Part shown: one piece after another, positions 7,285-61,871 of the stretch
Layout of the letters: every line of letters starts with the position of its first letter
How positions within the stretch are numbered: position 1 is the first letter of the stretch
Origin: Methylococcales bacterium
GTDB lineage: Bacteria > Pseudomonadota > Gammaproteobacteria > Methylococcales > Methylomonadaceae
DNA: 64,000 bases
Reading direction: 5' to 3'
Assembly: GCA_026398895.1 (NCBI GenBank)
Contig: JAPLRZ010000050.1
Location: 1-64,000, forward strand
Notes under the pieces: generated by a model
Told to the model about the DNA's origin: nothing
The model's database searches: none
Seen by the model: only the letters and a program-made list of their open reading frames with translations
Position numbers and translations under genes: made by a program

Positions 7285-7354
7285 AATATTATCGTGAATA
7301 GACGAAATGATTAATTCGTAGATACCATCTCTCCAAATCAATCGCAAGCGACAT

Positions 7355-21159: not shown

Positions 21160-21161
21160 TG

Positions 21162-40939: not shown

Positions 40940-40973
40940 ATGACTGCCAGTCCTTTAAAGGACTGGCGGTCAT
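40940..40973. repeat. 34-bp palindrome, intergenic copy
   Basis: Arms ATGACTGCCAGTCCTTT / AAAGGACTGGCGGTCAT with one mismatch. A nearly identical palindrome lies inside the giant gene at 43377-43410. It is located between the convergent ends of the small membrane-protein gene and the giant gene. No T-tract. Confidence 0.75.
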
Positions 40974-41046: not shown

Positions 41047-44000
41047 TCACCCAGTTTCTGAGTTGATAACTAACGCATTTATCACACTCTGTTCAAATGC
41101 GCGTACTACACTGACATCGTTATCTACCTTTGGAGCTGCGGTTTTAAGTGCATGACGACGCGTTGCATGGTGCTTGGGATTGCGGCATTCTTCAGCCAGT
41201 TTTGCTGCGATTTGCACATAGTCCTCACGCGAACTGGCAATTGTGTCAGTAAGTCCAATTTTACGCAACAATCCTGCTGCCAATCGCTGGCGCATAAACT
41301 CACCTTCTAGGGTTACGATGGGTAAGCCTCGATGCACCGCCTGCCACGCAGTGGTATAGCCAGAAAATGAGGGGCAATCGAGATAGACATCACATAAATC
41401 AAGCAAGGTCTGAAATTTTTCCATCGATTGCCAAGGAATCACTAGCAGATGTTGTTTTGGATTTAAGCCACGATCAACAAAACATTGCTCAAGTCTGGCA
41501 ACTATCTGATCGGTTGCCCAAGTATCCTGACGGTCGCCTAGCAAAATAAATACACTGTCATGCACCACACTGGCAATAGTGGCGTAAAGCGCGTCATCGA
41601 CAGGATCAAACTTGTAGATGGTTTGTGCGATTATAAAGCGCACGCTACTGCTTGCAGTCAATTGGGCTACAAGTTCAGGCGATAATGGTTCAGGTAAAAT
41701 ATTGATCGGGGTTGTGCAACAGCCAGTGTTAGGCAAGCGTATCAAGCGTTCACGATAATGACTATCCGCATTCGGTGACTCAAGTAATTCCCCTGAAAAA
41801 TACAGGTCGATAGTCGATAATCCTGTGGTGATGGGATGTCCCCAGCTTGCAATTTGTAAAGTTGCAAAACGATGTGAGGCTAATCTGGCTGATAGAGGAT
41901 CCATGCCAATTTCTGGGTAAAAAATAACATCAGCTGCGTCCGTTTCCAATGCGGTTAACCAGCCTGCTAACTCAGTAATCGTGTGCGTATCGCGCCATTC
42001 ATTCGCTAATGACTTGGCAAAAGCGGTTTCTTGGTCTTCGATTTTACCTAAATGATAGAGTATTAGCTCAAAACGGCTACGATCTAAGTTGACTAACAAG
42101 CCTCGAGTAATAACATCCCAAACCGAATGACGGCGAAAATGATGTGAAATGACCACCATGCGTATTTTTTTTGCTAGTGGTTTAACAGACACAGAGCGAC
42201 TAGGGCTTGTGACTAAATCGCCATAACGCGACAATCGCTGGACATGATTGCCAGCTCGATAAGCCAACAGAAAAGGCAAAGGCAGAAGCTCCGCCTTGTG
42301 TAGGGATTCTTGGTGACTTGCTGAGGAATTTATCCAATTTGATAAATTGCTCAGGGCATCGTCGAATTGACTGGGGACTAAAATCGAAGCGGCCGCACTT
42401 TTAGGGATGACGGGTAACGACATAATGAGTTGTATAAAGTGCAGCTCTGTATTATCGGGAATCGCCGTTAATGCAGTCTGTAAACTGATTTCTGCTTGTG
42501 AAAGCTGTCCTTGATCTTTTAACAGGGTAATAAGGTTGCAATGCGCTTCACTATAATCGGGTTTAATCGCTATTGCGCGTTGATAGCTGGCTTCGGCTTC
42601 GGAATAGCAATGTTGTTTTTTGAGTAACAACCCTAAGTTATTATGTACTTCAACATAATCTGGTTTAACCACTAAAGCACGTTGGTAGTTGACAATGGCT
42701 TCATCAACACGGTTAAGGTCTGCAAGAACAACACCTCGGTTATAAAGGGCATCAAAACTATTCGGATTAATCGCTAAAGAACGGTCATAACTGCTAAGCG
42801 ATTCTTCTAAACGTTTAAGATTGTATAGCGTATTAGCCTGACCAAAAAGTGCTTCGGCATGATGGGTGTCGATAGATAATAGCAGGTCGTAATTGATGAG
42901 TGCTGCATCAAAACGATTGAGAACTTGTAAAGTGATTCCGCGCCCTATCAATGCATCGATAAAATCTGGCTTAATAGTCAATGCCATGTTATAGCCGATC
43001 AAGGCTTCATCAGGACGATTAAGCGTTTGTAATAAATTAGCCTGATTTAAAAGAGCATCAACACTGTCAGGACTCAGCTCTAATACCTTGTCATAGCAAA
43101 TCAATGCGTCATCAAAGCGATTCAATGCTTGAAACACCGCGCCTAAATTTGAATATGCCGCAGAATTATTGGTATTTATAGTGAGTGACTGCTGGATTAA
43201 CTCTACCGCACGTTGTGGCTGTCCCTTTTGATTTTTTAATACGCCCAAAAAATGCAGCACATCAACGTGTTGAGGCTCGGTGTGCAATATCTCTTGATAC
43301 AGCACTTCAGCTTGCTCCAACTGCCCTTGTTGATGCAAGCTAAGTGCTTGTTGAAATTTATCGGCATTGGCTGGTAATGACTGCCAGTCCTTTAAAGGAC
43401 TGGCAGTCTTATGTGCCGACACATAAATATGATCGGGAGCGAGTCCCGCTTGATAGCGGTCAAACATCATTTGAAAAGCAGATTCAATGTGTTTGGCAAA
43501 CAAAGCGGTGTTAAATAATGGCGTAGTCAGGTGGTTATCGGCTAACTTTTGTTTCAGCGCGGCGAGTTGTTCTGGATGAGTGGCTAGTTGAATTGCCAGT
43601 GCCTCATAATCTTCATAATTACTGGTAATTAATTCGGGTAAGCCAATAGCATTGAGTAAACTCGCCGCCACGCGGCTGGCAAATGCTTCACCCATACAAG
43701 TCAACACAGGCAAGCCTACCCATAGCGCGTCATTGGTGGTGGTGTGTGCGTTGTAAGGTAAGGTATCTAAAAACAAATCAGCTAAGCGATAGCGTGCTAA
43801 ATATTCTGGCATCGCCATGCGTTGGGCAAAACATATCCGCTCAGGGTTTATGCCACGCGCTGCTGCTTCAAGACGACAGTTTTTGGCAACATAAGCATTA
43901 TCTTCCAGCAGCCATAACACGCTACCTTCAACTTGATGTAATAGCCGCATCCAACTATCAAATACGGCGGACGTAATTTTATGATTATTATTAAAACAAC

Positions 44001-47000
44001 AAAACACAAAACCCTGAGCAGGTAAGCCAAGTTCTGCTCGTGTAAACGACCTATTTGCAATGAATCGCTTGCTATCACTGCTCATATAGCTATTGGGCAG
44101 ATAGGCTATTTTTTCCGTGTAGTAGGGCTGATATTCGCTGGGGATTAAGGTGGGATCAGCCAATAAATAGTCGATGTATTCTGACCCCATCGTACTGGCA
44201 TAGCCCAAGTAACTCACTTGAATAGGGGCTACTCGCATTGCGAAAATATTGGTTCTGCCACCTTCGGTAAAGCCATTTAAATCCACTGCAATATCACAAC
44301 CAAGCTGTCTAGCCAAGCGCACAACTTGTTCATCTGATTGCTGGCTAACATCAATAAATTGATCAAATGACGGTTCTAATCTTAGGCGCATTTCATCTTT
44401 ATGATCTGCGGCATACAAAGAAAATGCAATCACTTCAAACCGAGAATGATCATGGTATTCAAACAATTCCGCCATTAAGTAGGCAATAGGATGATTACGA
44501 AAATCTGCGGAAAAATAAGCGATTTTAATTTTTGAATGGGTGTGTTTTGACAAGGGTGGTAACAGTAACTGACTGGGGTATTTTGTTTGGCTATAGATTT
44601 CGGCAGCTTTTTTCTGTAAGGCGGCAGAGGATGTCATTGCCAATACAGAAAAAGGTGTGACTATTTTTTTGCCCTGTTCTATCTCGCTAACAAGTTTGTT
44701 AGTGTGATGAACTAGGTCTTTCCAGTCACACATTTTCATTTTTGAAGACAACCAAGTGCCAAACAAAAAAGCATGGTCTGGCTGAATGGCAAGAGCGCGT
44801 TCGTAGTAAATAATCGCATCGCTAAAACGTTTAAGTTCTTGCAACACCACACCACAGCCTAGCAATGCTTCGGTATAGTTTGGATTGACGACTAAAGCGC
44901 GTTCATAGCTAGCGAGTGCTTCATCATAACGCTTAAGAGTACATAGCACCGTTGCACGATTGGAAAGAGCTTCAGGGTAGTTTGGATTGACTTCTAAAGC
45001 GCGGTCATAGCTGTTAAGTGCCTCGTTCAAACGTCTGAGTTCTTGTAATATGTTGCCACGATTGCTGAGTGTTTCCACATCATCAGGCACGATAACTAAA
45101 GCCCTATCATAACTGTCGAGTGCGTCATTGAAGCGTTTAAGCTCCTTTAATGTGTTGCCACGATTAGTGATTACTTCCGCATAGTTAGGTTTGAGAGCTA
45201 ACGCACGGTTGTAACTGGCAAGTGCGTCGTCAAAACGCTGAAGACCTTGTAATACAACACCTCGATTGCACAGCACTTCAACATAGTTTGGATTGATAGC
45301 TAATACTTGATCGTAGTTAGCGAGGGCTTGATCAAAATAATTGTGGCTTAGTAGTAAATTGGCACGATTAAATAATGCTTCATCATAATCGGGCTTGAGT
45401 GTTAACGCACGGTCATAGCTGGCGAGTGCCTCGTCAAAACGATTAATAGTTTGTAGTGCGAGAGCTAGGTTTAAGTGTGCTTCTGCATTATTAGGGTTTA
45501 TGTTGAGTGATTGCTGAATTAAATCAATCGCGAGCGGTGCTTGTCCATGTTGATTTTTCAGAATACCTAAAAAATGTAGAGCATCAACGTGTTGCGGATT
45601 CGTTTTTAATAGCTGTTCATACAATACTTCGGCTTCTGCAAATTGCCCTTGTTGATGCAAACTTAGCACTTGTTGAAATTTATCATCACTAGCGAGCAGT
45701 GGTTTTAACTCAATAACTGCTTGTTGCTGGGTGGTATGGATTTGCTCTTGAATGGGTACATAAATATGATCGGGAGCTAAGTCTGCTTGATAGCGGTCAA
45801 ACATCATTTGAAAAGCAGATTCGATATGTTGGGTAAATAATGCGGTATTAAATAATGGCGTAGTCAGGTGGTTATCGGCTAACTTTTGTTTCAGCGCGGC
45901 GAGCTGTTCAGAATGAGTGGCGAGTTGAATTGCCAGTGCCTCATAATCTTCATGATTGCTGGTAATCAATTCGGGTAAGCCAATAGCACTAAGCAAACTC
46001 GCCGCCACACGACTGGCAAATGCTTCACCCATACACGTCAATACAGGTAATCCTGCCCATAGCGCATCACTGGTGGTGGTGTGGGCATTACAGGGTAGGG
46101 TATCTAAAAATAAATCCGCCAAACGATGACGCGCTAAATGTTCTGGCAACGCTACGCGTTGGGCAAATACTATTCGTTCAGGATTTATGCCCCGCGCTAC
46201 TGCTTCAAGGCGACAATTTTTGGCAGCAATGGCATTGTCTTCCAATAGCCATAACACACTGTCTTCAACGTGATGCAATATCCGCATCCAACTATCAAAC
46301 ACCGCTGGGGTAATTTTATAATTATTATTAAAACAACAAAATACAAAACCCTGCTCAGGTAAGTCCAGTTCTGCACGGGTGAATTGTCTATTGGCAATGA
46401 CTCGGCTGGTATCATTGACCTGATAGCTATTCGGTAAATAGACACAGAATTCTGAGTAATAGGGCTGATATTCTTTTGGAATTAATACCGAATCTGCCAA
46501 TAAATAGTCGATGTAATCGGCACCCATTGTGCTGGGATAACCTAAATAACTCACTTGAATGGGTGCGGCACGCATGGCAAAAATGTTAGGTCGGGCATCT
46601 TCGGTAAAGCCTTTTAAATCAACCGCAATATCAATCTCTAGTTGTCTAGCCAGTCGCACCACCTGTTCATCTGATTGCTGACTGACATCAATAAATTGAT
46701 CAAATGCCGCTTCCAATCGTAAGCGCATCGCATCTTTATGGCTTGCTGAATGAAAAGAAAAAGCGATAATTTCAAACCGTGATCTATCGTGACGATCAAA
46801 TAATTCAGCGATTAATTGGGCAGTAACATGAATACGAAAATCTGCGGAAAAATAAGCGATTTTAATTTTTGAATGTGCGTGTTTTACTAGCGGTGGCAAC
46901 AGAAAATGACTAGGATATTTTTCCTGCACATAATAACGGGCAACTGTTTGCTGGATTGCCGCTGATGAAGTCAATGCCAAGACAGGAAAGGGGGTAGAGG

Positions 47001-50000
47001 CTTTTATCCCTAGGGTTATTTTTTTTATCAGCTGTTCACGATTAGTCTCAAAACCACTCCAATCACATAGCCGCATTTTATTATGTAACCAAGTACCCAG
47101 CAAAAATGGATGGTCAGGCTTGAGGGTAAGAGCGCGTTCATAGCTACTGAGTGCTTCATCAAAACGATTAAGAATTTGTAAAACATTACCCCGATTAATC
47201 AGGGTTTCTACAGAATCTGGTTGAATCGCTAACAGTTGGTCACACACGCTCAGCATCTCTTGATAACGATTGAGGTTTTGTAATACCGTGCCACGACCAA
47301 TAAGTGCTAGCCATAAATTAGGTTTAATGGCTAATGCCTTATCATAATTACTTAGGGCTTCGTCAAAACGACTGAGTGCTTGTAACGCATTACCCCGATT
47401 GCAGAATGCTTCTGCATAATCTGGCTTAATGACTAGCGCGTGATTATAGCTAGCAATAGCGTCATCAAAGCGTTTCAGGCTTTGTAATACGTTGCCACGA
47501 TTAGAATGCGCTCTGGCATAGTTGGGATTAATAGATAAGGCGCGATCATAACAGGCAAGGGCTTCGTCTAACTGATTCAGGTCTTCTAGGTCATTGCCCT
47601 GATTAATGAGTGCTTCAATCGTATCTACTTCGATGATTTGTTCGGAGGTAGTTGGTAAAGTAACCGTATCAATATCCTCTGATTGCGTTTCCACGCTGAT
47701 ATGATCAGGTGCTAATCCTGCTTGATAGCGATCAAACATCATTTGAAAAGCAGATTCAATATGTTGGGTAAATAACTCAGTATCAAACAATGGCGTAGTC
47801 AGGCGGTTATCGACTAACTTTTGTTTCAGCGCGGCGAGTTCATCTGGATGGGTAGCAAGTTGGATTGCCAGTGCTTGGTAATCGTCAAGATTGGTAGTAA
47901 TTAATTCGGGTAAGCCAACAGCACTAAGCAAACTAGCTGCCACACGACTGGCAAACGCTACCCCCTCACATGTCAATATAGGTAAATTCACGCAAGTCAA
48001 CACAGGTAAACCCACCCAGAGTGCATCACTGGCAGTGGTGTGTGCATTATAAGGCAGTGTATCTAAAAACAAATCAGCTAAGCGATGCCGCGCTAAATGG
48101 TCTGGTAACGAAGCGAGTCGTTTGGCAAAAATTAATCGGGTAGGCTCTATATTGCGTGCTTTTGCTTCTCGCTGTAAGTTGTTGACTGCATCCGCATTAC
48201 TTTCACTCAGCCACAATACACTGCCTTCAATGCTATGCAATAAACGCATCCAAATATCAAACACCGTTGGCGTTATTTTATAAGCGTGATTAAAACAGCA
48301 AAAGACAAAACCGTGTTCAGGTAAGCCGAATTCTGCCCGCGTAAATTGTCTATTGGCAATGGGACGATGAGTATCATTGACCAGATAGCTGTTGGGAAGA
48401 TAGGCTATTTTTTCCGTGTAATAAGACTGACATTCAGTAGGAATGACGACTGAATCAGCCAGTATATAATCCATATAATCCACGCCCATCGTGCCAGAAT
48501 AGCCCAAATAGTTGACTTGAATAGGAGCGACTCGCATAGCAAATAAGTTAGGTCGGCAACCCTCGGTAAAGCCATTTAAATCAACAGCAATATCGATTTC
48601 GAGTTTTCTAGCCAGTCGCACAACTTGCTCATCCGATTGCTGGCTGACATCAATGAATTGGTCAAATACAGTTTCCAGCCTTAAACGCATATCATCTTTA
48701 TGGTTTGTGGCATGAAGAGAAAAAGCGATAATTTCAAACCGCGCTCTATCATGACGTTCAAATAATTCAGCGGATAAGTAAGCAACGGCGTGATTACGAA
48801 AATCCGCTGAAAAATAAGCCAGTTTAATTTTTGAATGCGTGTGTTTTTCTAGTGGAGGCAATAGAAAATGACTGGGATATTCTGCTTGTGCATAAATGGA
48901 CGCTGCTTTTCGCTGCAAAGCAGGAGATGAAGACATTGATTGGACAAAAAATGGTGTAAACGCTTTTTCTCCGCGTGTTATTTTTTGCTGGAGCGTATCA
49001 AGATTGGTATCAAATTCACGCCAATCACATAGCTTCATTTTTAAAGACAGCCAAATACAGAACATAAATTCTGAGTTTGGCTTGATAGTAAGCACACGTT
49101 CATAACTATTAATTGCGTCATTAAAGCGTTTGAGGTCTTGTGACACATTGCCCTGACCGATCAGTGCGTCTATATAGTCTGGTTTGATAATCAAAGCGCG
49201 TTGATAACTAGCCAGTGCTTCATCAAAGCGTTCAAGATTGTGTAGAACTTTGCCACAGTTGTAACACGCTTCGGCGTAGTTTGGCGTGATGCTCAAAACA
49301 CGTTCATAGCTTATCAGCGCGTCAGAAAATTGTTTACAGTCGAATAGTGCGTTGCCACGTCCTATGAGAGCGTCGATAAAATCAGGCTTAATGCGTAATG
49401 CACGGTCATAACTGGCGATAGCTTCCTGAAAACGTTTGCCTGCTAGCAAGGCGTTACCTCGATTATAGAAGGCTTCGGGATAATCGGATCTAATCGTCAA
49501 GGCTTGATCATAACTCGCAAGTGCTTCATCAATACGTTTCATGCTTTGCAGGACATTACCCCGATTAGAATGCGCTCTGGCGTAGTTAGTATTAATAAAT
49601 AAGGCGCGGTCATAACTGGCAAGTGCTGCATCAAAATACCCAAGGTCTTCTAGCTCATTGCCACGATTTATCAGCTCTTCAACCGTATTTTCTTCGATGA
49701 CTAAGGTGCTTTCAACGCTGGCAGCAGTTTCATCCAAACGATCAATATTTTGTAATGTAAGCCCTTCATTAAAGTGTATTTGTACGCTATCAGAATGGGC
49801 GGGCAGTGTTTGCTTGCTTGAATCAACAATGTCTCGCGTTTGACGCTGTTTTTTTATCATCGCTACACAGCGTAATGCTTCAGGGTGTTTAGGTTGTGTT
49901 TTTAACAGCTCTTGGTATAACAATTCAGCCGCCGCTAATTGCCCCTGATGATGTAATTGTTGCGCTTGCTCCAATGTATTAGCTTCGGCGGGCGTTAATG

Positions 50001-53000
50001 TGAGTGTTTGCTGTTTGGCTAATGGTGAGTTTTTTCGTTTGCCAAAAACTTTTATTGCCGCAAACAGTTGTGCGGGTTTTTGGGCAATTTTAGCCAATAA
50101 GCTGGGTGGATTGGATTTTTCTGTCGGATTTTCAATAACTACCGTTTTTGTAACGTGGATTGTTGGCAATGGTTGTTGCTGAATTTTAATAGCGGGTATC
50201 TGTGTGGGTACATAAAGATGATCTGGAGCTAAGCCTGCTTGATAACGGTCAAACATCATTTGAAAAGCGGATTCGATATGTTGGGTAAATAATGCGGTAT
50301 TAAATAATGGCGTAGTCAGACGGTTATCGGCTAATTTTTGTTTAATGGCAGCAAGTTGTTCAGGATGGGTAGCCAGTTGAATTGCCAGCACTTCATATTC
50401 CATAGGGGTTTGAGTCACTAATTCTGGTAAACCGATGGCATAAAGTAAGCTTGCCGCCATTCTGCTTGAAAATGTTTCTCCTAAATAGGTCAATATGGGT
50501 AATCCAGCCAATAAAGCGGCACTGGCGGTTGCACCTGCATTATAGGGCGAGGTATCGAAAAATAAATCAGCTAACTTTTGCCGTGCTAAATGCTCTGACA
50601 TTGTCAACTTTTTGGCAAAGACTATTCTCTCAGCATCAATGCCACAACTTGCTGCTTCAGCGCGTAAATTTTCTGTAGCATCATCGTTATCTTCCAATAG
50701 CCACAGCACACTGCCTTCAACCTGACCTAATATTCGCATCCAACTCTCAAATACCGCAGGGGTGATTTTATAATTGCTATTAAAGCAGCAAAACACAAAG
50801 TCTTGTTCTGGTAAATTGAGTTCTGTACGCGTAAAAATTTTATCGCTAATAGACAATTTGCTATCGTTGACCTGAAAGCTATGGGGCAAATAAGCAATTT
50901 TTTCACTGTAATAGCGTTGATGTTCTGTAGGTATTAATGTGCTATCAGCCAGTAAATAGTGCATATAATCGGTTCCCATCGTCCCTAAAAAACCTAGATA
51001 ACTAACTTGAATAGGAGCTACTCGCATGGCAAAAATACCTGTGCGAGAATTGGCAGTAAAACCATTGAGATCAACAGCAATATCGCAACCAATCTGTCTA
51101 GCCAGTTGTACAATTTGTTTGTCCATTAGCTGGCTGACATCAATAAACTGATCAAATGAGACCTCTAACCTTACACGCATAGCGTCTTTATTGCTGACTG
51201 GGGAAAAAGAGAAAGCGATAATTTCAAACCGCGTTCTATCGTGACGTTCCAACAACTCTGCTATCAAGTGCGCAACGGGGTGGTTACGAAAATCCGATGA
51301 AAAATAAGCTAGTTTAATTTTTGAGTGCGTGTTTTTTACCAAGGGAGGTAATAAAAAATTGCTGGGATACTTTTGTTTTGCATAGGTTTCCGACGCTTTT
51401 TTCAGTAGTTCGGCCGATGAATAAATGGAATGTAAAGTAAACGGTGCAGCTACTTTTTCGCCGCCTTCTATCGCATTTGCCAATTTATTAAGATGCGTGT
51501 CAAATTCAGTCCAATCACAAATATTCATCTTGATATGCAGGTAATCACCGAACATAAACGCCATGTCTGACTTGATGGTAAAGGCGCGTTCATAGAAGGT
51601 AATCGCCTCTTTAAAGCGTTTCATGTCTTGCAATATTACCGCACAAGCAAACAATGCTTCAGCATACTCTGGCTTGATAGCTAAGGCGTGTTCACAACTT
51701 GCTAAGGCTTCGTCATAACGCTTAAGCTCTTGTAATACATTTGCTTTGTTAATCAATGCTTCTATATAGTCTGGCTTGATGCTTAAAGCACACTCATAGC
51801 TAGCCAGTGCTTGATCAAGACGATTAAGATTTTTTAATACAATGCCACGACTAAATAGTGTTTCAGTATGATTAGGATTGATAGCAAGAGTCTTATCATA
51901 GCTGCTCAGAGCCTCATCAAATTCTTTATGGGCTAACAGTAAATTACCGCGATTAAAATAAGCATCGGCATAATGTGGTTCAAGGCTTAAGGCGCGGTTA
52001 TAACTAGCAAGTGCTAATTCAAAGCGATTAAGCTCTTGGTAAGCAAGCCCAATATTTGAATACGCTGCGGCATTGTTGGGGTTTATGTTCAGAGATTGGT
52101 TGATTAAATCAACAGCAAGCTGTGCTTGTCCACGCTGTTTTGCAATCACACCTAGCAAATGCAGGCTATCCGCGTGTTGAGGCTGACTTTGTAATATTTC
52201 TTTATACACCTGCTCTGCTTCTGCCAATAATCCTTGTTGATGATAATCAACCGCGCGTTGAAATTTATCACTACTGTCAGGCGTTAGCTGACTTTGTTGA
52301 ATAGACTCCAAATTAGTTGCCACATCATCTGGTACATACAGATGATCGGGAGCGAGTCCAGCTCGATAACGATCAAACATCATCTGAAAAGCGGATTCGA
52401 TATATTGGGTAAATAACGCGGTATTAAATAATGGTGTAGTCAGGCGGTTATCGGCTAACTTTTGTTTAACTGCGGCAAGTTGTTCAGGATGGGTAGCCAA
52501 TTGGATTGCTAGTGTTTCATAATCGTCCATAGATTGGGTCACTAACTCAGGCAAGCCAATAGCATTCAGTAAACTGGCAGCCATTCTGCTCGAATAGCTT
52601 GTGCCTAAAAAAGTGATTAGCGGCAGCCCCGCCCATAATGCCGCGCTGGCAGTCGCCCCTGCATTGTAAGGGCTGGTATCTAAAAATAAATCAGCAAGAC
52701 GATGACAGGCTAAATACTCAGGCATGGGTACACGTTGGGCAAATACTAATCGCTGGGCAGCAATGCCGTGAGCGGTCGCGCTTAGCCGTAAGTTTGATTC
52801 AGCATCAACATTGCCGCCTACTAACCACAAAACACTGTTCTCAACGTCACGCAGTATTCGCATCCAACTGGTAAAAATCGTAGGCGTGATTTTGTAATGG
52901 CTATTAAAACAACAAAACACCACGCCCTGTTCAGGCAAACCGAGTTCTGCACGCGTAAAAACTTTATCGCTAATAGACAACTTGCTATCATTGACTTGAA

Positions 53001-54348
53001 AGCTATGCGGTAAATAAGCACAGAATTCGTTGTAATAGGCTTGGTGTTCAGTTGGAATTAACACCCGATCAGCCAGCAAATAATCGATGTAATCCGCGCC
53101 CATTGTGCCGAGATAACCGATGTAGTTCACTTGAATCGGCGCAGCACGCAGCGCAAAAATATCGGTTCTACAGCCTTCGGTATAGCCATTCAAATCCACA
53201 GCAATATCGATTTCAAGCTGTCTGGCCAGTCTCACAACCTGTTCATCGGATTGTCCGCTGACATCAACAAACTGGTCAAATGCTGCTTCTAATCTTAAGC
53301 GCATATCATCTTTATCACGCGCTGCATGAAAAGAGAAAGCGATAATTTCAAACCGTGAACGGTCATGGCGTTCAAATAATTCAGCCGTTTGATAAGCAAC
53401 TGCGTGTGAATAAAAATCAGAGGAGAAATAGCCGATTTTAATTTTTGAATGTGAGTGTTTTACCAATGGTGGTAACAGAAAATGACTAGGGTGTTTTGTT
53501 TGAGTATAAATCTCGGCAACTTTTTTCTGCAAGGCGGCGGATGAAGAAACCGCTTGTAGGGTAAAGGGTATCGACACTTTTTCGCCACGTTCTATGGCAT
53601 TGGTCAATTCACCGAGATCATGATTAAATTCATGCCACTGACAGCTACTCATTTTCGTGTATAGACGCGTGCCGAGAATAAACTCTAAATCTGGCTTGAT
53701 GGCAAGAGCGTGTTCATAGCTGCTGAGTGCTTCGGTGAAGCGTTTGAGACCATTCAATACAGCACCTCTGCCAGCAAGTGCTTCGGCGAAATCTGGCTTG
53801 ATAGTCAACGCACTTTCATAGCTGGCAAGTGCTTGATCATAACGTTTAACAGCTAATAACACATTGCCCAGATTAGAGAATGCTTGCGCATAGTCTGGCT
53901 TGATCGCTAAAGCTCGTTCATAGTCAAGAATAGCTTCATCAAAACGCGTGAGTGCCAGTAGTGCGTTACCACGATTGTAATGTGCTTCGGCATTATTAGG
54001 TTTTAAAGCTAAGCTACGATCATAACTGGCAATGGCTTCATCGAAACGCTTGAGTTCTTGAAGCGCGAGACCGAGATTTGAATGAGCGGCTGCATTATTA
54101 GGTGCGATTTCAAGTGCTTGACTGATTAATTCCACTGCCCGTTGCGATTGTCCGCGCTGGTTAACTAACACGCCTAAAAAATGTAAGGCATCAATATGTT
54201 GAGGTTGATTTTTTAGTTGTTGTTCATACAACACTTCAGCTTGTTCCACACGTCCTTGTTGATGCAAGCTAAGTGCTTGTTGAAATATATCTGTATTGGA
54301 GGGAGGTATCGTTTCTTGGGTTGGAGCGGTGGTTTTGTGTGTGTGCAT
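41047..54348 (-). CDS. Giant protein with six TPR + GT41 (SPINDLY/OGT-like) units
   Basis: 4433 residues in one open frame, with no signal peptide or TM. Six successive units, each an array of TPRs (about 5-10) followed by a GT41 domain: about 1-672, 673-1382, 1383-2219, 2220-2862, 2863-3639 and 3640-4433. The OGT catalytic-type His (in SSDFxxH) is at 315, 1023, 1853, 2507, 3286 and 4074, and the UDP-contacting Lys (in YKITP) is at 486, 1194, 2024, 2678, 3457 and 4246: spacing 171 in units 1-5 and 172 in unit 6. Units 3-5 keep the UDP-binding HTTxxD. Units 1 and 2 read GATASA instead, and unit 6 is divergent (GYTTAWQ). Known GT41 enzymes O-GlcNAcylate or O-fucosylate proteins and have one catalytic domain. 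The substrate is unknown. A terminator separates it from the upstream methyltransferase gene; the only ribosome-site candidate is a weak GGGA. Confidence 0.9.
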   Translation of the reverse strand: MHTHKTTAPTQETIPPSNTDIFQQALSLHQQGRVEQAEVLYEQQLKNQPQHIDALHFLGVLVNQRGQSQRAVELISQALEIAPNNAAAHSNLGLALQELKRFDEAIASYDRSLALKPNNAEAHYNRGNALLALTRFDEAILDYERALAIKPDYAQAFSNLGNVLLAVKRYDQALASYESALTIKPDFAEALAGRGAVLNGLKRFTEALSSYEHALAIKPDLEFILGTRLYTKMSSCQWHEFNHDLGELTNAIERGEKVSIPFTLQAVSSSAALQKKVAEIYTQTKHPSHFLLPPLVKHSHSKIKIGYFSSDFYSHAVAYQTAELFERHDRSRFEIIAFSFHAARDKDDMRLRLEAAFDQFVDVSGQSDEQVVRLARQLEIDIAVDLNGYTEGCRTDIFALRAAPIQVNYIGYLGTMGADYIDYLLADRVLIPTEHQAYYNEFCAYLPHSFQVNDSKLSISDKVFTRAELGLPEQGVVFCCFNSHYKITPTIFTSWMRILRDVENSVLWLVGGNVDAESNLRLSATAHGIAAQRLVFAQRVPMPEYLACHRLADLFLDTSPYNAGATASAALWAGLPLITFLGTSYSSRMAASLLNAIGLPELVTQSMDDYETLAIQLATHPEQLAAVKQKLADNRLTTPLFNTALFTQYIESAFQMMFDRYRAGLAPDHLYVPDDVATNLESIQQSQLTPDSSDKFQRAVDYHQQGLLAEAEQVYKEILQSQPQHADSLHLLGVIAKQRGQAQLAVDLINQSLNINPNNAAAYSNIGLAYQELNRFELALASYNRALSLEPHYADAYFNRGNLLLAHKEFDEALSSYDKTLAINPNHTETLFSRGIVLKNLNRLDQALASYECALSIKPDYIEALINKANVLQELKRYDEALASCEHALAIKPEYAEALFACAVILQDMKRFKEAITFYERAFTIKSDMAFMFGDYLHIKMNICDWTEFDTHLNKLANAIEGGEKVAAPFTLHSIYSSAELLKKASETYAKQKYPSNFLLPPLVKNTHSKIKLAYFSSDFRNHPVAHLIAELLERHDRTRFEIIAFSFSPVSNKDAMRVRLEVSFDQFIDVSQLMDKQIVQLARQIGCDIAVDLNGFTANSRTGIFAMRVAPIQVSYLGFLGTMGTDYMHYLLADSTLIPTEHQRYYSEKIAYLPHSFQVNDSKLSISDKIFTRTELNLPEQDFVFCCFNSNYKITPAVFESWMRILGQVEGSVLWLLEDNDDATENLRAEAASCGIDAERIVFAKKLTMSEHLARQKLADLFFDTSPYNAGATASAALLAGLPILTYLGETFSSRMAASLLYAIGLPELVTQTPMEYEVLAIQLATHPEQLAAIKQKLADNRLTTPLFNTALFTQHIESAFQMMFDRYQAGLAPDHLYVPTQIPAIKIQQQPLPTIHVTKTVVIENPTEKSNPPSLLAKIAQKPAQLFAAIKVFGKRKNSPLAKQQTLTLTPAEANTLEQAQQLHHQGQLAAAELLYQELLKTQPKHPEALRCVAMIKKQRQTRDIVDSSKQTLPAHSDSVQIHFNEGLTLQNIDRLDETAASVESTLVIEENTVEELINRGNELEDLGYFDAALASYDRALFINTNYARAHSNRGNVLQSMKRIDEALASYDQALTIRSDYPEAFYNRGNALLAGKRFQEAIASYDRALRIKPDFIDALIGRGNALFDCKQFSDALISYERVLSITPNYAEACYNCGKVLHNLERFDEALASYQRALIIKPDYIDALIGQGNVSQDLKRFNDAINSYERVLTIKPNSEFMFCIWLSLKMKLCDWREFDTNLDTLQQKITRGEKAFTPFFVQSMSSSPALQRKAASIYAQAEYPSHFLLPPLEKHTHSKIKLAYFSADFRNHAVAYLSAELFERHDRARFEIIAFSLHATNHKDDMRLRLETVFDQFIDVSQQSDEQVVRLARKLEIDIAVDLNGFTEGCRPNLFAMRVAPIQVNYLGYSGTMGVDYMDYILADSVVIPTECQSYYTEKIAYLPNSYLVNDTHRPIANRQFTRAEFGLPEHGFVFCCFNHAYKITPTVFDIWMRLLHSIEGSVLWLSESNADAVNNLQREAKARNIEPTRLIFAKRLASLPDHLARHRLADLFLDTLPYNAHTTASDALWVGLPVLTCVNLPILTCEGVAFASRVAASLLSAVGLPELITTNLDDYQALAIQLATHPDELAALKQKLVDNRLTTPLFDTELFTQHIESAFQMMFDRYQAGLAPDHISVETQSEDIDTVTLPTTSEQIIEVDTIEALINQGNDLEDLNQLDEALACYDRALSINPNYARAHSNRGNVLQSLKRFDDAIASYNHALVIKPDYAEAFCNRGNALQALSRFDEALSNYDKALAIKPNLWLALIGRGTVLQNLNRYQEMLSVCDQLLAIQPDSVETLINRGNVLQILNRFDEALSSYERALTLKPDHPFLLGTWLHNKMRLCDWSGFETNREQLIKKITLGIKASTPFPVLALTSSAAIQQTVARYYVQEKYPSHFLLPPLVKHAHSKIKIAYFSADFRIHVTAQLIAELFDRHDRSRFEIIAFSFHSASHKDAMRLRLEAAFDQFIDVSQQSDEQVVRLARQLEIDIAVDLKGFTEDARPNIFAMRAAPIQVSYLGYPSTMGADYIDYLLADSVLIPKEYQPYYSEFCVYLPNSYQVNDTSRVIANRQFTRAELDLPEQGFVFCCFNNNYKITPAVFDSWMRILHHVEDSVLWLLEDNAIAAKNCRLEAVARGINPERIVFAQRVALPEHLARHRLADLFLDTLPCNAHTTTSDALWAGLPVLTCMGEAFASRVAASLLSAIGLPELITSNHEDYEALAIQLATHSEQLAALKQKLADNHLTTPLFNTALFTQHIESAFQMMFDRYQADLAPDHIYVPIQEQIHTTQQQAVIELKPLLASDDKFQQVLSLHQQGQFAEAEVLYEQLLKTNPQHVDALHFLGILKNQHGQAPLAIDLIQQSLNINPNNAEAHLNLALALQTINRFDEALASYDRALTLKPDYDEALFNRANLLLSHNYFDQALANYDQVLAINPNYVEVLCNRGVVLQGLQRFDDALASYNRALALKPNYAEVITNRGNTLKELKRFNDALDSYDRALVIVPDDVETLSNRGNILQELRRLNEALNSYDRALEVNPNYPEALSNRATVLCTLKRYDEALASYERALVVNPNYTEALLGCGVVLQELKRFSDAIIYYERALAIQPDHAFLFGTWLSSKMKMCDWKDLVHHTNKLVSEIEQGKKIVTPFSVLAMTSSAALQKKAAEIYSQTKYPSQLLLPPLSKHTHSKIKIAYFSADFRNHPIAYLMAELFEYHDHSRFEVIAFSLYAADHKDEMRLRLEPSFDQFIDVSQQSDEQVVRLARQLGCDIAVDLNGFTEGGRTNIFAMRVAPIQVSYLGYASTMGSEYIDYLLADPTLIPSEYQPYYTEKIAYLPNSYMSSDSKRFIANRSFTRAELGLPAQGFVFCCFNNNHKITSAVFDSWMRLLHQVEGSVLWLLEDNAYVAKNCRLEAAARGINPERICFAQRMAMPEYLARYRLADLFLDTLPYNAHTTTNDALWVGLPVLTCMGEAFASRVAASLLNAIGLPELITSNYEDYEALAIQLATHPEQLAALKQKLADNHLTTPLFNTALFAKHIESAFQMMFDRYQAGLAPDHIYVSAHKTASPLKDWQSLPANADKFQQALSLHQQGQLEQAEVLYQEILHTEPQHVDVLHFLGVLKNQKGQPQRAVELIQQSLTINTNNSAAYSNLGAVFQALNRFDDALICYDKVLELSPDSVDALLNQANLLQTLNRPDEALIGYNMALTIKPDFIDALIGRGITLQVLNRFDAALINYDLLLSIDTHHAEALFGQANTLYNLKRLEESLSSYDRSLAINPNSFDALYNRGVVLADLNRVDEAIVNYQRALVVKPDYVEVHNNLGLLLKKQHCYSEAEASYQRAIAIKPDYSEAHCNLITLLKDQGQLSQAEISLQTALTAIPDNTELHFIQLIMSLPVIPKSAAASILVPSQFDDALSNLSNWINSSASHQESLHKAELLPLPFLLAYRAGNHVQRLSRYGDLVTSPSRSVSVKPLAKKIRMVVISHHFRRHSVWDVITRGLLVNLDRSRFELILYHLGKIEDQETAFAKSLANEWRDTHTITELAGWLTALETDAADVIFYPEIGMDPLSARLASHRFATLQIASWGHPITTGLSTIDLYFSGELLESPNADSHYRERLIRLPNTGCCTTPINILPEPLSPELVAQLTASSSVRFIIAQTIYKFDPVDDALYATIASVVHDSVFILLGDRQDTWATDQIVARLEQCFVDRGLNPKQHLLVIPWQSMEKFQTLLDLCDVYLDCPSFSGYTTAWQAVHRGLPIVTLEGEFMRQRLAAGLLRKIGLTDTIASSREDYVQIAAKLAEECRNPKHHATRRHALKTAAPKVDNDVSVVRAFEQSVINALVINSETG
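43377..43410. repeat. 34-bp palindrome inside the giant gene
   Basis: ATGACTGCCAGTCCTTT / AAAGGACTGGCAGTCTT, nearly identical to the intergenic copy at 40940-40973. It lies in the linker between units 5 and 6 and is translated in frame as part of TASPLKDWQSLPA. The other unit linkers lack it. Confidence 0.8.
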
Positions 54349-54422: not shown

Positions 54423-55040
54423 CTATTTTTTTGCCACAATTAACTTAATAATATCGCCACTACTTTCATCCACATGAACCGAGCTAAACGCGCAGGATTG
54501 TACATTTTTAACGGTATTGCGATTAATATTAGCACCCACTAGGGCAACGACGGCAGGATTAACAAAATTCATCACACTGGCAAGCGCGGGTTTTGAACTT
54601 AAGATATGCTCTAGTAAAATTACCTGCCCATCGGGTCTACACACGCGGTACAGCTCTTTTAAACCTTTTAATGGCAACGGCACAGAGCAGAACACAAAGG
54701 TAGCAATCACGGTATCAAAACTGTTATCGGCAAAATACAAAGACTGCACATCCATTAAATCCAATTCAACCGTGACATTTTTTCGAGTGCGTTTTTGTTC
54801 AGCTCGTTTGAGCATTTCTTTACTGAAATCAATCGCGGTGATTCTGGCATCGGCGGGATAATAATCAAAGTTTTTACCTGTGCCTACTCCCACTTCGAGG
54901 ATGTGATGACCCTGCACTTTTTCCCAACATTTTTTACGCCAGCCTTTAAAAATTAGACCTTCGATAACGGCTTCCATGCCCTCAAAATACGGAGCAATTC
55001 GATTATAACGTTGTTGTATGTCGGTACTGTCTGGCTTCAT
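54423..55040 (-). CDS. Class I SAM-dependent methyltransferase (UbiE/PmtA-like)
   Basis: 205 residues. Motif I HILEVGVGTGKNFDYY, motif II region ITAIDFSKEML, DLMDVQSLYFADNSFDTVIA, and RPDGQVILLEHILSS. The sequence resembles phospholipid N-methyltransferases and UbiE-type enzymes; the substrate cannot be fixed. It is divergent from ribA (155 nt apart) and upstream of the giant gene, from which a terminator separates it. Confidence 0.85.
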   Translation of the reverse strand: MKPDSTDIQQRYNRIAPYFEGMEAVIEGLIFKGWRKKCWEKVQGHHILEVGVGTGKNFDYYPADARITAIDFSKEMLKRAEQKRTRKNVTVELDLMDVQSLYFADNSFDTVIATFVFCSVPLPLKGLKELYRVCRPDGQVILLEHILSSKPALASVMNFVNPAVVALVGANINRNTVKNVQSCAFSSVHVDESSGDIIKLIVAKK

Positions 55041-56021: not shown

Positions 56022-56966
56022 TCACAGATCAGCACGTTTACCGCTGATGCCTTTCAATCCGTCAAGCACACCAAAGTACATCATTTGCAGACGTTGCCAC
56101 CTATCTTCTGCTACCCACCCAAAAAAAATGGCGGTTTTTAAACATCTAGTCATCTCAGCGATTTTCCAACCCCAAGGTATATAACTCCGCCGAGACAACA
56201 ATACACTGTTGCGAAACATATAGTAATAGCGAAAGTGTTTGTGAAACGGCACAATCCGTTTGCGAAAAAGCCAACAAACCTCTCTTCGTTGTTCTCCAAG
56301 CGAGTGAGCCATCACTGCTCCACGCACTCCAAATACTTGTAGCCCTTTGGCTTTGGCACGCAAGCACCATTCTGTATCAACGAGGTCTATAAACAACCCC
56401 TCATCCATTAGCCCAACTAAGTCTAGTGCAGTAATAGGCAACAACGATCCAGAAGACACTAAGAAATCGGTATCTACAATGTCGGAGTTATTCACATACT
56501 CGGAAAAAATAAACCGTCCGCGCTCAATTTTTACAAACTGAGATAAGCTACCATTATCCGCATCGTGGTATTGTGGACCAATCGCCGCTACCTGTAGCCC
56601 TTTTTCAATCAACGCCGCGTATGCAGTATGCAGTTTAACCACCATCTCCGCACCGACTTGACTATCTTGATCCAGCAACAATATAAATTTTGCGCCTTGT
56701 GCAATAGCGATCTTGATGCCAATGTTATGCGCAGCTCCGATGCCTAAATTTTTTTCCTGCGGGAGTAAATGCAGTTTTGTATTAGCCTGATTTTCAAATG
56801 TGTCGAGCCAGTTAGGTGAAAAATTTGATGAACCATTATCGACAATAAAAACATCAGCTACTTGGTCTAACACAGCTTGAATAGTCGTTCGCAGTGCTTC
56901 CGTATTGGGATTGTAGGTAACCAACACAGCGGATACATCGGGACAATAATCTTTATTTTCCATCAT
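56022..56966 (-). CDS. GT2-family glycosyltransferase, rhamnosyltransferase-like
   Basis: 314 residues. GT-A fold with VSAVLVTYNPNTEALRTTI, VFIVDNGSSN, the DxD region FILLLDQDSQV, and GLFIDLVDTEWCLRAKAKG typical of RfbF/WbbL-like rhamnosyltransferases. It is a cytoplasmic, membrane-associated enzyme of O-antigen or capsule assembly. It is the most distal minus-strand gene of the glycan locus; an IS200 remnant separates it from the rest. Confidence 0.88.
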   Translation of the reverse strand: MMENKDYCPDVSAVLVTYNPNTEALRTTIQAVLDQVADVFIVDNGSSNFSPNWLDTFENQANTKLHLLPQEKNLGIGAAHNIGIKIAIAQGAKFILLLDQDSQVGAEMVVKLHTAYAALIEKGLQVAAIGPQYHDADNGSLSQFVKIERGRFIFSEYVNNSDIVDTDFLVSSGSLLPITALDLVGLMDEGLFIDLVDTEWCLRAKAKGLQVFGVRGAVMAHSLGEQRREVCWLFRKRIVPFHKHFRYYYMFRNSVLLSRRSYIPWGWKIAEMTRCLKTAIFFGWVAEDRWQRLQMMYFGVLDGLKGISGKRADL

Positions 56967-56978
56967 AAGGTTAAAACC

Positions 56979-57235
56979 ATCAGCTTCCAGCTGGTTAGCT
57001 CCAGCTGATAAACTGTCTCATTTTGAGGTGTGTGGTGGACTACAGGTATGGCGGTAATACGGTTTTTCAAATTGAATATCACTTTGATTGGCTGACAAAA
57101 TACCACTACAAGATTTTGACAGGTGATGTTGCTAAACGAGTTAGATATGTCGTATGTCAGGTGTGTGAAACGTTCGAGATACGGAGAATGGGCGAGGTAA
57201 TTAGCAAGGATCATTATTTTTTCGGATTCACCTGA
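56979..57235 (+). mobile_element. IS200/IS605-type element remnant (left hairpin + 5' part of tnpA)
   Basis: The left-end hairpin ATCAGCT (56979-56985) / AGCTGAT (57003-57009) is followed on the plus strand by a degraded TnpA: YRYGGNTVFQIEYHFDWLTK, then YKILTGDVAKRVRY and VISKDHYFFGF, ending at a TGA at 57233-57235. Intact IS200 transposases read VSKDHVHxLVS here; the HUH histidine pair is lost and the second half with the catalytic Tyr is absent. The opposite-strand open frame over the same DNA is not a gene. Confidence 0.85.
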
Positions 57236-57252
57236 AATTAAAAAATGCTCAT

Positions 57253-59652
57253 CTATAATAATGAAGATTCTGAACCTGAGTCGATAGGTATGGTCTTGCC
57301 CTTATAATTTGTAGCAAATAAAAGTAGCATTGCAGCAAAAAGAGAAAATATATAAATTACAGTATTATTATGATAATTTTTAGGTTTTGGACACCCTGGA
57401 GTCGACAGATTAGTTCCATTAGCATACTCTACAGACAGGCACGAAGCGAAAGGTAATCCATCTTTATCTGATTTCCACAGGCTCACACCTTCTCCAGTTT
57501 TAGAAAAAAATTCACCAGAATTATAAAGCGCAGGAGTCACATTAAAAAATTTATATTCATTATCTTTTAACGTAGATAAATCAAACCCTATTTCTTCACC
57601 ACCACCTTCTTTACTATGCAATCTTATTGTTCCTTCACCTTCATTCGTTCGTGCATACGTTCCAAACATAATACCAATTTTTTTAATTGGTACGTTATAG
57701 GTAATAATTTTTTTTGTAAAAACAAGTTCGATTTTTTCTCCATCAAGAAGAATAGAGGGAGATGGAACGAGTGTGTAAGTCGAGGTATCCACATCTTCTT
57801 TGATGCGAATAGAATTAGCAAAAGATAATCCTAATTTCTTTGCAAAAGCAACTGCCTCGGTAACATCACCATCTAATATGTCAGGACAAACAACTCTTTC
57901 TCCATGTATTTCCTTTTCGTAAACACATGCTAGAGCATTACTTTTTCTCTCAGCAGCCCATGTATAAAAGCTAGTAAAGTCAAACGCACCTTTAACATGA
58001 ATTACATGGGTTACTGATATAACAATAAAAAAAGCGATAGTTAACCTCGAAATAATATAATTAAAACGAAATGTTAAATAATTTCCTAAGATAATGGCAA
58101 CCCATGGTAATAGTATAGTTAACCAAAAAAAATGGAATCTCAATTGCGCATGGGAAAATATATCTCGGAAAGAAGAAACTGTATCAGGTCGAAGATTAGC
58201 TCTACCTGCGGATACAATAATTGCATACGAAAACACGGCAAAAAATAGAACACCATACAGATACAGAAGATTAAACTTCCTTTCTCTTATGTTATCTTCA
58301 TTACTTACCCAGAAGTCATAGAAAAGAAATATAAAACTGCTTAGAATAGCAATAAAAACTAAACTGGCAAGCAGCAATGATGAAATACTGGAGTTATTAA
58401 AAAAACCGATAGCGCGTGCAAACATTCCTAAAAAAAAAGCCCAGAAATCAATATCAATAGGTAATGCCCAAGGGTTAGAGGAAGAAATTAAACCCTTTTG
58501 TGCAAAAAGAATAACCCATAGTTGTACTGGCAAAGTAACTAAGGTAGCCATCCCTATTCCGATTGCAGAACTTTTATAATACGGGATCATTTTCTTGGGC
58601 GCGACACTCAAGACAAACATTGTCCACACAGTGATGGATAGCAATGCAATAGCACCAGAAATATAAGACAACCCACCCAATGTTCCTATAAAAAAAATAC
58701 AGAAAGCATGTAATCCAAGATGAGAAACAATTCTGCCAACTATAATCAAAAGGATTATTAATATACTCAAGATAGGTAGTGCTTGATGGTAAGCGCAGCT
58801 TTGTATTCCCCAGTAAGTGCCAGACTGAAGCATAAAAATTATAGGAAAAATACCAATGGCTAGAACCAGTTTATTGACTGCGAATTTACGAAGAAGAGAA
58901 AATTGGAGATAAGTTAATCCACCCAATACAAACAAGAAAGAAGTACTTTGATAAAGTATATTATTCCCTGAGAATAAGTAAATGCTTAAAGAGTCAAAAA
59001 ATCGTCCCGTCACATACATCGTATCATTTGATGGGGTAAATAAATAGGGTAACGAAAAAGACCCAGCATTCTGGTGACTAATATCCCTCCAGTCGTCATC
59101 TATTGGGATATCAACACTGTGTGATGTAAGTGAAAATAAATTGAAAAAAAACATCGATATTATGACTAAGGAAGTTATCAAAAATATAATATGCTCTATA
59201 AATATTTTATTTTTAATGAAAACTATCCATAGTTTTAGTGTATCAATTTTGCTAGGATAGGTCGTATCGATTATTGTAGTTTTATTATTATGCGGTCTTT
59301 CCATTACGAATTTACTCAATAAAAATGTCACAGGAGTGGTAATTAAAATAACAAAAACCATGCTTAATTTTGGATCTATACTAACAGTCTCTATTAGTAT
59401 TTTTAATATTGCTATTCCAAGAGTATATTGAACGACATAAACAATCGGAAACTGTATAAAACGCCTTAGATTCAAAGGCTGTACAAATACATAACGCGCA
59501 TTCAAAATATATGAAATAACAATGCCGATGCAGTAGGAAATAGAATAAGCTATCGTATATGAAAAAAGCTCTAGTAATAGAAGATAGACGAGATAACTCA
59601 GTATGGTATTAACCAAACCCGCAATCAAAAACCTGATAAATGGTTTACGCAT
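57253..59652 (-). CDS. GtrA-domain/polytopic membrane protein fusion
   Basis: 799 residues. Residues 1-120 are a GtrA-type four-helix module (FIRFLIAGLVNTILSYLVYL, ILNARYVFVQPLNLRRFIQF) of the kind that flips or helps transfer undecaprenyl-linked sugars. A second part with about 10 or more membrane helices has a GT-C-like first loop (DIPIDDDWRDISHQ). The region from about 555 to 760 is hydrophilic and probably periplasmic, with a last membrane anchor near 765-785. GtrA normally occurs alone or next to a GT, so this fused form is unusual. It overlaps the WxcM-like gene by 8 nt. Confidence 0.75.
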   Translation of the reverse strand: MRKPFIRFLIAGLVNTILSYLVYLLLLELFSYTIAYSISYCIGIVISYILNARYVFVQPLNLRRFIQFPIVYVVQYTLGIAILKILIETVSIDPKLSMVFVILITTPVTFLLSKFVMERPHNNKTTIIDTTYPSKIDTLKLWIVFIKNKIFIEHIIFLITSLVIISMFFFNLFSLTSHSVDIPIDDDWRDISHQNAGSFSLPYLFTPSNDTMYVTGRFFDSLSIYLFSGNNILYQSTSFLFVLGGLTYLQFSLLRKFAVNKLVLAIGIFPIIFMLQSGTYWGIQSCAYHQALPILSILIILLIIVGRIVSHLGLHAFCIFFIGTLGGLSYISGAIALLSITVWTMFVLSVAPKKMIPYYKSSAIGIGMATLVTLPVQLWVILFAQKGLISSSNPWALPIDIDFWAFFLGMFARAIGFFNNSSISSLLLASLVFIAILSSFIFLFYDFWVSNEDNIRERKFNLLYLYGVLFFAVFSYAIIVSAGRANLRPDTVSSFRDIFSHAQLRFHFFWLTILLPWVAIILGNYLTFRFNYIISRLTIAFFIVISVTHVIHVKGAFDFTSFYTWAAERKSNALACVYEKEIHGERVVCPDILDGDVTEAVAFAKKLGLSFANSIRIKEDVDTSTYTLVPSPSILLDGEKIELVFTKKIITYNVPIKKIGIMFGTYARTNEGEGTIRLHSKEGGGEEIGFDLSTLKDNEYKFFNVTPALYNSGEFFSKTGEGVSLWKSDKDGLPFASCLSVEYANGTNLSTPGCPKPKNYHNNTVIYIFSLFAAMLLLFATNYKGKTIPIDSGSESSLL

Positions 59653-60580
59653 TTCGCTTTACCAGTGTTTCAAACTCACTGTAATCTCTAATATAATCAC
59701 TTGAATCATAATACTCAGAGGCGAATACTAACAACACAGCATCAGAGGAGTAATGATATTGAATACCCCATGTCATTGCTGGCAGATAGAGTCCAATGTT
59801 ATTGCGATCTAACAAAAATTCCTCACGCTTCCTGCCATCATCCGCAACTACGCGCACTGAACCCTTGACCGCGATTAAAAACTGCTGACATTTTATATGG
59901 GCATGTTCACCGCGTGTCTCAGTTGTAGGTACATCAAAGACTAGAAAATAACGCAGTGGTTTAAAAGGAATTTCTCGCTCAAACTCGCCAACAGAAAGAC
60001 TACCACGCATATCTGGTACTGCACGGAAGGTATGAAGCGTAACACCAGCAACTGTTGTTGATACCTTACTTTGATCTTGATGATGTGATTTTTCAGTACT
60101 TGTACCCTTGCCATTTTTTGCATCAACATAGCCAATAATTTTAGCGGGATTCCCCGTTACAATGGCATTATGTGGAACAGATCGAGTAACTACTGAACCC
60201 GCTTCAATGATAGCATTACCGCCAACGGTGATGTTTGCTGATATTGTTGCGTTAGCACCAATAAATGCTCCTTTAGCTATTAACGTACAGGCAACATTCT
60301 CAGAACATATCCCATCTCTTTGAGACCGATCATTTGTAAAAGTCACATTAGAATCAATAAAAACATCATCTTCAATGCGCAAACCATCCCATAATTGAAC
60401 TCCACATTTTATCGTTACTCGATTACCTATTTGTACGTTATTTTCTATGAAAACATAATCACAAATATCACAGTCGCTACCAATATAGGCTTTTGATAAA
60501 ATATGAGCAAATGCAGCCACTCTCGTATTTTTTCCTATACTAGCACCTTCCTCTACTAAGGCTTTTTCATGAATAACCAT
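59645..60580 (-). CDS. WxcM/FdtD-like bifunctional acyltransferase and dTDP-ketosugar isomerase
   Basis: 311 residues. Residues 1-155 are a left-handed beta-helix acyltransferase (hexapeptide repeats; AGSVVTRSVPHNAIVTGNPAK at its end). After a Lys/Ser/Gln-rich linker, residues about 178-311 are a WxcM-C/FdtA cupin with the active-site TRGEHAHIKCQQFL. In Xanthomonas WxcM and Shewanella FdtD this pair isomerises dTDP-4-keto-6-deoxyglucose to the 3-keto sugar and acylates the later 3-amino sugar (Fuc3N or Qui3N). The aminotransferase is expected outside the window. Confidence 0.85.
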   Translation of the reverse strand: MVIHEKALVEEGASIGKNTRVAAFAHILSKAYIGSDCDICDYVFIENNVQIGNRVTIKCGVQLWDGLRIEDDVFIDSNVTFTNDRSQRDGICSENVACTLIAKGAFIGANATISANITVGGNAIIEAGSVVTRSVPHNAIVTGNPAKIIGYVDAKNGKGTSTEKSHHQDQSKVSTTVAGVTLHTFRAVPDMRGSLSVGEFEREIPFKPLRYFLVFDVPTTETRGEHAHIKCQQFLIAVKGSVRVVADDGRKREEFLLDRNNIGLYLPAMTWGIQYHYSSDAVLLVFASEYYDSSDYIRDYSEFETLVKRNA

Positions 60581-60677
60581 TAAATTTCCTTTTTTGCATT
60601 AAATTCATAAATTATTAAAGAAGCTAGTGACAGTATTTTTACACATAAAAGTAAACCTTATCGTTAAATTCATATAT

Positions 60678-61133
60678 TTAGCTATCCTTTGATGGAATAT
60701 ATATTTCAGCTGTGCCATCAATTACTTTTTTATTGTTTACTGTACAATATGTATTAAAAAACACTCTCTTTTTTTCTGTATCTACAGCGGTTACCACTAT
60801 AGTCGCTGTAACAGTATCATCAATATAAACAGGCTTCTTAAAGCTTAAGTTTTGAGAAACATACACACAACCTTTTCCTGGTAGTTTTGTTCCAAATAAA
60901 GCAGAAAAAAAACTCGAGCTTAGCAACCCATGAGCGATTCTTTTTTTAAATCGAGAGGCTTTCGCATACTCATCATCTACATGTACTGGATTTTTATCTC
61001 CAGATATAGCTGCAAAACCTTTTACATCTGCATCTGTGATTGTCTGTGAATAAGAAGCACTCATACCAACCTTTATCTCATTTATGCTATATGTTTCCTT
61101 TACTAATTGCATTTCAATATCGTTTATAATCAT
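60678..61133 (-). CDS. MaoC-like (R)-specific enoyl-CoA hydratase
   Basis: 151 residues from the ATG at 61133, which overlaps the acyltransferase stop as ATGA. Hot-dog fold with the hydratase-2 signature ISGDKNPVHVDDEYA (catalytic Asp and His) and HGLLSSSFFSALFG, as in PhaJ. It hydrates trans-2-enoyl-CoA to (R)-3-hydroxyacyl-CoA. In a glycan cluster, coupled to an acyltransferase gene, it most plausibly supplies a 3-hydroxyacyl donor for sugar modification; that is inference. Confidence 0.85.
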   Translation of the reverse strand: MIINDIEMQLVKETYSINEIKVGMSASYSQTITDADVKGFAAISGDKNPVHVDDEYAKASRFKKRIAHGLLSSSFFSALFGTKLPGKGCVYVSQNLSFKKPVYIDDTVTATIVVTAVDTEKKRVFFNTYCTVNNKKVIDGTAEIYIPSKDS

Positions 61134-61870: not shown

Positions 61871-61871
61871 T

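Follow-up and report, generated by a model that had tools for sequence, protein, structure and literature searches.

The 4433-aa protein encoded at positions 41047-54348 of the window (the whole 64,000-nucleotide stretch of Methylococcales DNA analysed here) is a real single-gene modular TPR-GT41 chain with six heads. ORF reading revealed one uninterrupted frame of 4433 codons on the minus strand, with an ATG start and no internal stops, and the plus strand across the same positions is stop-rich. The initial annotation, in which no strand was given, had described six TPR + GT41 units in one 4433-aa frame, and this description was borne out by the ORF reading, Pfam and a head profile. The Pfam search that it had proposed as a check matched Glyco_transf_41 (PF13844) in 11 stretches, with 1421 bits summed and many TPR matches alongside, and the curated cut-off of this domain was exceeded by all six heads. 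The head-profile scan detected five full-length core heads, each scoring 912-942 bits, and a divergent sixth at 66 bits. The catalytic-type His is located at residues 315, 1023, 1853, 2507, 3286 and 4074, and the catalytic-type Lys at residues 486, 1194, 2024, 2678, 3457 and 4246, which confirmed the reported His-Lys spacing of 171 residues in heads 1-5 and 172 in head 6.

The catalytic regions of the core heads (heads 1-5) share 64-77% amino-acid identity among themselves, so that the near-identity of five units originally proposed was not found; identity between head 6 and the core heads is about 24%. Heads 1 and 5 show homology to solved GT-B enzymes, and a GT-B fold is predicted for the heads. 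Two AlphaFold2 models, with pLDDT values of 38 and 45, were too low in confidence for use.

Organisation of the chain and its locus

The units are arranged along the minus strand as follows. Unit 1 comprises the N-terminus and a TPR array (residues 1-216; 53701..54348) followed by head 1 (residues 217-673; 52330..53700). Each later unit opens with a linker and TPR array: residues 674-924 (51577..52329) before head 2 (residues 925-1381; 50206..51576), residues 1382-1754 (49087..50205) before head 3 (residues 1755-2220; 47689..49086), residues 2221-2408 (47125..47688) before head 4 (residues 2409-2865; 45754..47124), residues 2866-3187 (44788..45753) before head 5 (residues 3188-3644; 43417..44787), and residues 3645-3964 (42457..43416) before head 6 (residues 3965-4433; 41050..42456). 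Heads 1-5 are GT41 cores and head 6 is a divergent GT41 domain of a different lineage. A TPR array thus precedes every head, and the 4-7 repeats recognised per unit are lower bounds from a simple home-made TPR profile. Head 3 carries an insertion of about 9 residues resembling a short local duplication (VLTC/ILTC).

A sequence scan located a palindrome of 28 bp, ACTGCCAGTCCTTTAAAGGACTGGCAGT, that is read in frame as part of the linker between head 5 and unit 6 (43380..43407), and a second site at about 40943-40972 of the window. Allowing up to two mismatches, 67 copies are present in the window's genome and 68 in the congeneric genome G007, and there were no copies in five sampled genomes outside the genus. 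Within this sample, the palindrome is a genus-specific, dispersed and putatively REP/MITE-like element. Some two-partner-secretion (TPS) exoprotein genes also carry it in their signal region, and the peptide TASPLKDWQS is found both there and in the linker.

A gene encoding a class I SAM methyltransferase of 205 aa (54423..55040) lies on the same minus strand 74 bp upstream of the fused gene, and recurs in the other congeneric loci that were read, except that of G001. The closeness of the two genes would allow an operon, but the gap contains an inverted repeat, GCCGCC...GGCGGC, together with a T tract; the repeat was not called by the inverted-repeat scan (loop limit 8) and was seen by direct reading. 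Positions 56022-63955, a short way upstream of the fused gene, carry a surface-polysaccharide gene group with GT2, GtrA-type and FdtA/WxcM-like genes, the last with a hexapeptide acyltransferase, as well as further acyltransferase-like genes. Two congeners (L022 and L024) have a type IV pilin gene on the upstream side of the fused gene, at a distance of a few genes. In L024, the pilin gene precedes one for an accessory-like membrane protein and one for a protein of 547 aa that has a TPR match. Translations of other parts of the window revealed apparent pilB/C/D genes (19069-22907), a GIY-YIG-like ORF of homing-endonuclease type adjoining an ssb-like gene (28635-29534), and overlapping AAA ATPase-like and TOPRIM-like genes beside mla-type transport genes (5726-7347), an OLD-like pair that is a possible defence element.

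Congeneric fused genes and the origin of the heads

GT41 was found in seven of the eight genomes of the genus, and six of them, the window's included, encode a frame with at least two GT41 heads. The fused frames of the five other congeneric assemblies, all Methylococcales, range from 2281 to 4450 aa. According to the profile scan, the chains are arranged as core-core-core-GT9L-GT9L-GT9L-head6type in G005 (4450 aa), GT9L-core-core-core-head6type in G007 (3442 aa; locus L033 of an uncultured Methylococcales MAG), core-core-GT9L-core-head6type in G006 (3370 aa) and core-GT9L-core in G001 (2281 aa), where GT9L denotes a GT9-like head; in G003 (at least 2549 aa) three core heads are followed by a fourth head cut by the contig end. 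The window protein has five core heads and then head 6, with no GT9-like head, and the number of GT9-like heads per congeneric chain varies from 0 to 3. The congeners thus exchange, lose or add modules, GT9-like heads included. Since relatives carry differing head numbers and mixtures, the protein represents a genuine, evolving multi-enzyme chain.

All head pairs tested are under purifying selection (omega 0.10-0.24). Pairs of corresponding heads took in window heads 1, 2, 4 and 6, and for heads 3 and 5 the comparison was confined to the remaining heads of the window protein (0.16-0.21). The dS between heads is about 0.85-1.4. These data bear on the objection, raised in the initial annotation, that the frame might be an assembly or annotation artefact, either a repeat expansion or several genes taken as one. 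Repeats are indeed present, and the assembly is a draft of 75 contigs. However, fused frames with differing head counts exist in five other genomes, the heads differ by 23-36% in protein, and a 13.3-kb frame stays open without stops under the selection described above. We therefore rejected the artefact, which is very improbable.

Phylogenetic analysis of 42 core heads placed all the fused-gene heads of the genus in one clade (support 97/91), in agreement with the internal duplication of core heads that had been suggested. Three window heads have a partner in G007, each with 98-100% support: heads 1 and 2 group with heads 1 and 2 of G007, and head 4 groups with G007 head 3, the third core head of that chain. 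Heads 3 and 5 have no G007 partner and therefore were either gained in the window lineage or lost in G007. The sister group and nearest outgroup is G126, a single-contig genome with four tandem, unfused, single-head TPR-GT41 genes (714, 695, 934 and 782 aa) and, after these, a TPR-GT9-like gene (669 aa). This array is the unfused natural counterpart of the fused chain, and we infer that fusion of a G126-like tandem array gave the chain. The array (L028) stops before an ApbE-like gene.

The G126 array also lends itself to a reading in which fusion merely set dosage, the six heads being largely redundant and doing the same job as the separate genes of G126. A head number ranging from 2 to 6 and linkers that tolerate insertions such as the palindrome would suit such a chain, but the heads diverged long ago and are distinct from one another (64-77% identity at the dS values given), each is under purifying selection, the split into two donor-site types described below is kept across species, and head 6 comes from another lineage. 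We regard redundancy of this kind as quite unlikely.

Head 6 had been proposed as the older template of the other units, and the tree did not support this, since it clusters (100/99) with genes that stand alone in other genera and to which it is 31-32% identical. Head 6 thus joined the chain from a separate GT41 lineage. As the program warned, long branches meet where head 6 attaches to the tree, so that the point of attachment is less certain than the split between head 6 and the core heads.

Donor sites, proposed function and candidate acceptors

Equivalents of hOGT H558 and K842 are present in all six heads, and that of D554 is kept in heads 1-5 and is a His in head 6. At the positions of H920-T-T...D925 in hOGT, heads 1 and 2 have G-A-T...A (type A; NAGATASAAL in head 1, with the changes H920->G, T921->A and D925->A), heads 3, 4 and 5 have H-T-T...D (type B, with the OGT motif; NAHTTASDAL in head 3), and head 6 has Y-T-T...Q. 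In the alignment, heads 2-4 share the His of hOGT H901, and heads 1 and 5 have Tyr in its place. As heads 1 and 2 lack the D925 and H920 equivalents whereas heads 3-5 have both, two donor-site types coexist in one chain. In the four complete chains possessing the head-6 type (G005, G006, G007 and the window), the first member of the GT41 series is a type A core head, and the last is of the head-6 type. The pattern of head types and their kept order argue for specialised heads and are silent on which sugar each would use; from two donor-site signatures and a third head lineage, different donors per head, an option raised in the initial annotation, seem plausible.

In hOGT, Asp925 binds the donor ribose, and the D925A substitution abolishes activity, mainly through lost UDP-GlcNAc binding (PMC4703063). 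Heads of type A might have lost catalysis or might use another nucleotide sugar. The first alternative would make heads 1 and 2 acceptor-binding scaffolds, with sugar transferred only by heads 3-6, as might be expected from the lost Asp925 and His920 equivalents and the inactivity of hOGT D925A (PMC4703063). Such scaffolds are rather unlikely, because both heads retain the catalytic Lys and His, omega for type A heads is 0.18-0.24, and a single-head protein, L031, has the type A signature as well and would be left without any active head.

From the domain identity and selection observed, we infer how catalysis, donors, acceptors and cooperation between heads may be arranged, and on balance we lean towards a modular cytosolic protein glycosyltransferase whose specialised heads would modify many sites on long repetitive acceptors, perhaps TPS exoproteins. 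The TPR arrays would serve as acceptor-binding arms, holding an unfolded, to-be-exported protein in the cytosol. With a nucleotide sugar as donor, each GT41 head would glycosylate Ser/Thr (or Asn) residues of this protein before export, and the spacing of heads along the chain would allow many sites of a long repetitive acceptor to be glycosylated. Processive or multi-site action, as the initial annotation had proposed, may be a property of such a chain. The head classes would then differ in donor or site and would not be six copies of one activity.

The mixing of three GT41 head classes with GT9-like heads in one chain family, the kept order of head types and a type A donor site unlike that of OGT are also what an assembly line would display, in which type A, type B, head 6 and the GT9-like heads of congeners use different donors to add successive sugars and build an oligosaccharide on one acceptor. 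Close relatives, however, vary strongly in head number and GT9-like content, which is ill-suited to an obligate sugar sequence, and we give this arrangement a small chance. A multi-catalyst chain with the logic of a modular synthase, in which the GT41 classes (and the GT9-like heads of sister species) might use different nucleotide sugars to decorate or extend glycans on a TPR-threaded acceptor, is likewise only a minor possibility.

For the favoured modular glycosyltransferase, acceptors were sought in the genus. Flagellin was excluded, since PF00669 had no match in any of the seven genus genomes searched. TPS exoprotein matches number eight in the window's genome, nine in G007 and six in G005, where one TPS exoprotein lies on the contig of the fused gene and a stand-alone TPR-GT41 gene follows two ESPR-TPS genes, with 20 bp in between. 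This layout resembles hmw1A-B-C, whose product HMW1C acts in the cytoplasm to glycosylate the TPS adhesin HMW1 (PMC3983070). The stand-alone protein of G005 has a relative in the window's genome (71% identity). Based on their abundance in the genus, the G005 layout and the HMW1C precedent, surface exoproteins such as TPS proteins appear to be the best acceptor candidates, and this is the least certain part of our proposal: the link concerns a stand-alone GT41 of another lineage, and no TPS gene adjoins the fused gene of the window. N-glycosylation of TPS proteins via sequons was rejected, because N-X-S/T sequons are not enriched in them; therefore, either Ser/Thr or non-sequon sites are needed or the TPS idea is wrong. 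TPR-GT41 proteins could instead modify cytosolic regulators.

Comparison with other many-headed proteins and known enzymes

A search for other multi-GT41 proteins, as had been recommended, found them in the congeners and in other lineages. Family f215 of the same phylum has frames with 2-4 GT41 heads, reaching 3767 aa with four heads, genus g16 of the window's own family has a 2624-aa frame with four, and frames with 2-4 heads occur in lineages beyond these. Like the window protein, the f215 and g16 frames combine several GT41 heads with TPRs, but they have fewer than six, and those of f215 differ in their Pro-rich linkers and other C-terminal domains. Their heads sit in other GT41 subclades, so many-headedness arose more than once, by convergence. 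Six was the highest head count among the frames read, with about 1,100 genomes searched and part of the long frames opened. The earlier statement that known GT41 enzymes have one catalytic domain thus holds for the characterised enzymes encountered but not for several other lineages, which encode GT41 proteins with 2-4 heads. No description of many-headed GT41 proteins was found in the literature searched, whose coverage largely leaves out subscription journals and preprints. On a first look, G615, G622 and G669 (families f228 and f236) showed an extreme expansion, with about 70-98 GT41 candidates each, and L030 (G083) encodes a 1401-aa protein with an FkbM methyltransferase domain and TPR-GT41, followed by a second TPR-GT41 gene.

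This wider set of many-headed TPR-GT proteins is of more interest than the six heads themselves, which are not unique in principle. A genus-wide family with 2-6 GT41 heads of specialised types, exchangeable GT9-like heads and independent parallels suggests the existence of bacterial multi-enzyme protein glycosyltransferases, provides natural head sets for probing how the GT41 donor site controls sugar choice, and might yield a tool for multi-site protein glycosylation.

Cytosolic GT9 heptosyltransferases include autotransporter heptosyltransferases. The congeneric chains include TPR and GT9-like heads, unlike the window protein, and the match of these GT9-like heads to the Pfam domain is confined to a stretch at its C-terminal end (24-67 bits per scanned segment). 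The HMW1C-like NGTs, also of GT41 and cytosolic, match head 6 at 68 bits, and hmw1C is found near TPS exoproteins, as is one stand-alone GT41 of the window's genus. In NGTs, an AAD domain replaces the TPRs (PMC3983070), whereas head 6 is preceded by TPRs. Head 6 was rejected as an HMW1C-type NGT, as it scored 60.8 bits against the 1000-bit cut-off of NCBIfam NF049992, and it is at a similar distance from SPY, TtOGT and NGT. SPINDLY, a GT41 O-fucosyltransferase, is likewise a TPR-GT41 protein; it matches head 6 at 72 bits and shares with the type A heads a Gly at the His920 position, but has a single head, uses GDP-fucose and, in the alignment, has Glu at the D925 position where type A heads have Ala.

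All five core heads match solved enzymes of the OGT type, with scores for head 1 of 256 bits against XcOGT and 255 bits against hOGT. Human OGT, Xanthomonas XcOGT and Thermobaculum TtOGT likewise have a TPR array followed by a GT41 domain with His558/Lys842 equivalents, and the HTT...D donor motif of OGT is shared by heads 3-5, whereas heads 1-2 lack D925 and H920. The heads of the chain have no intervening domain, and OGT has one head per protein where the chain described here has six.
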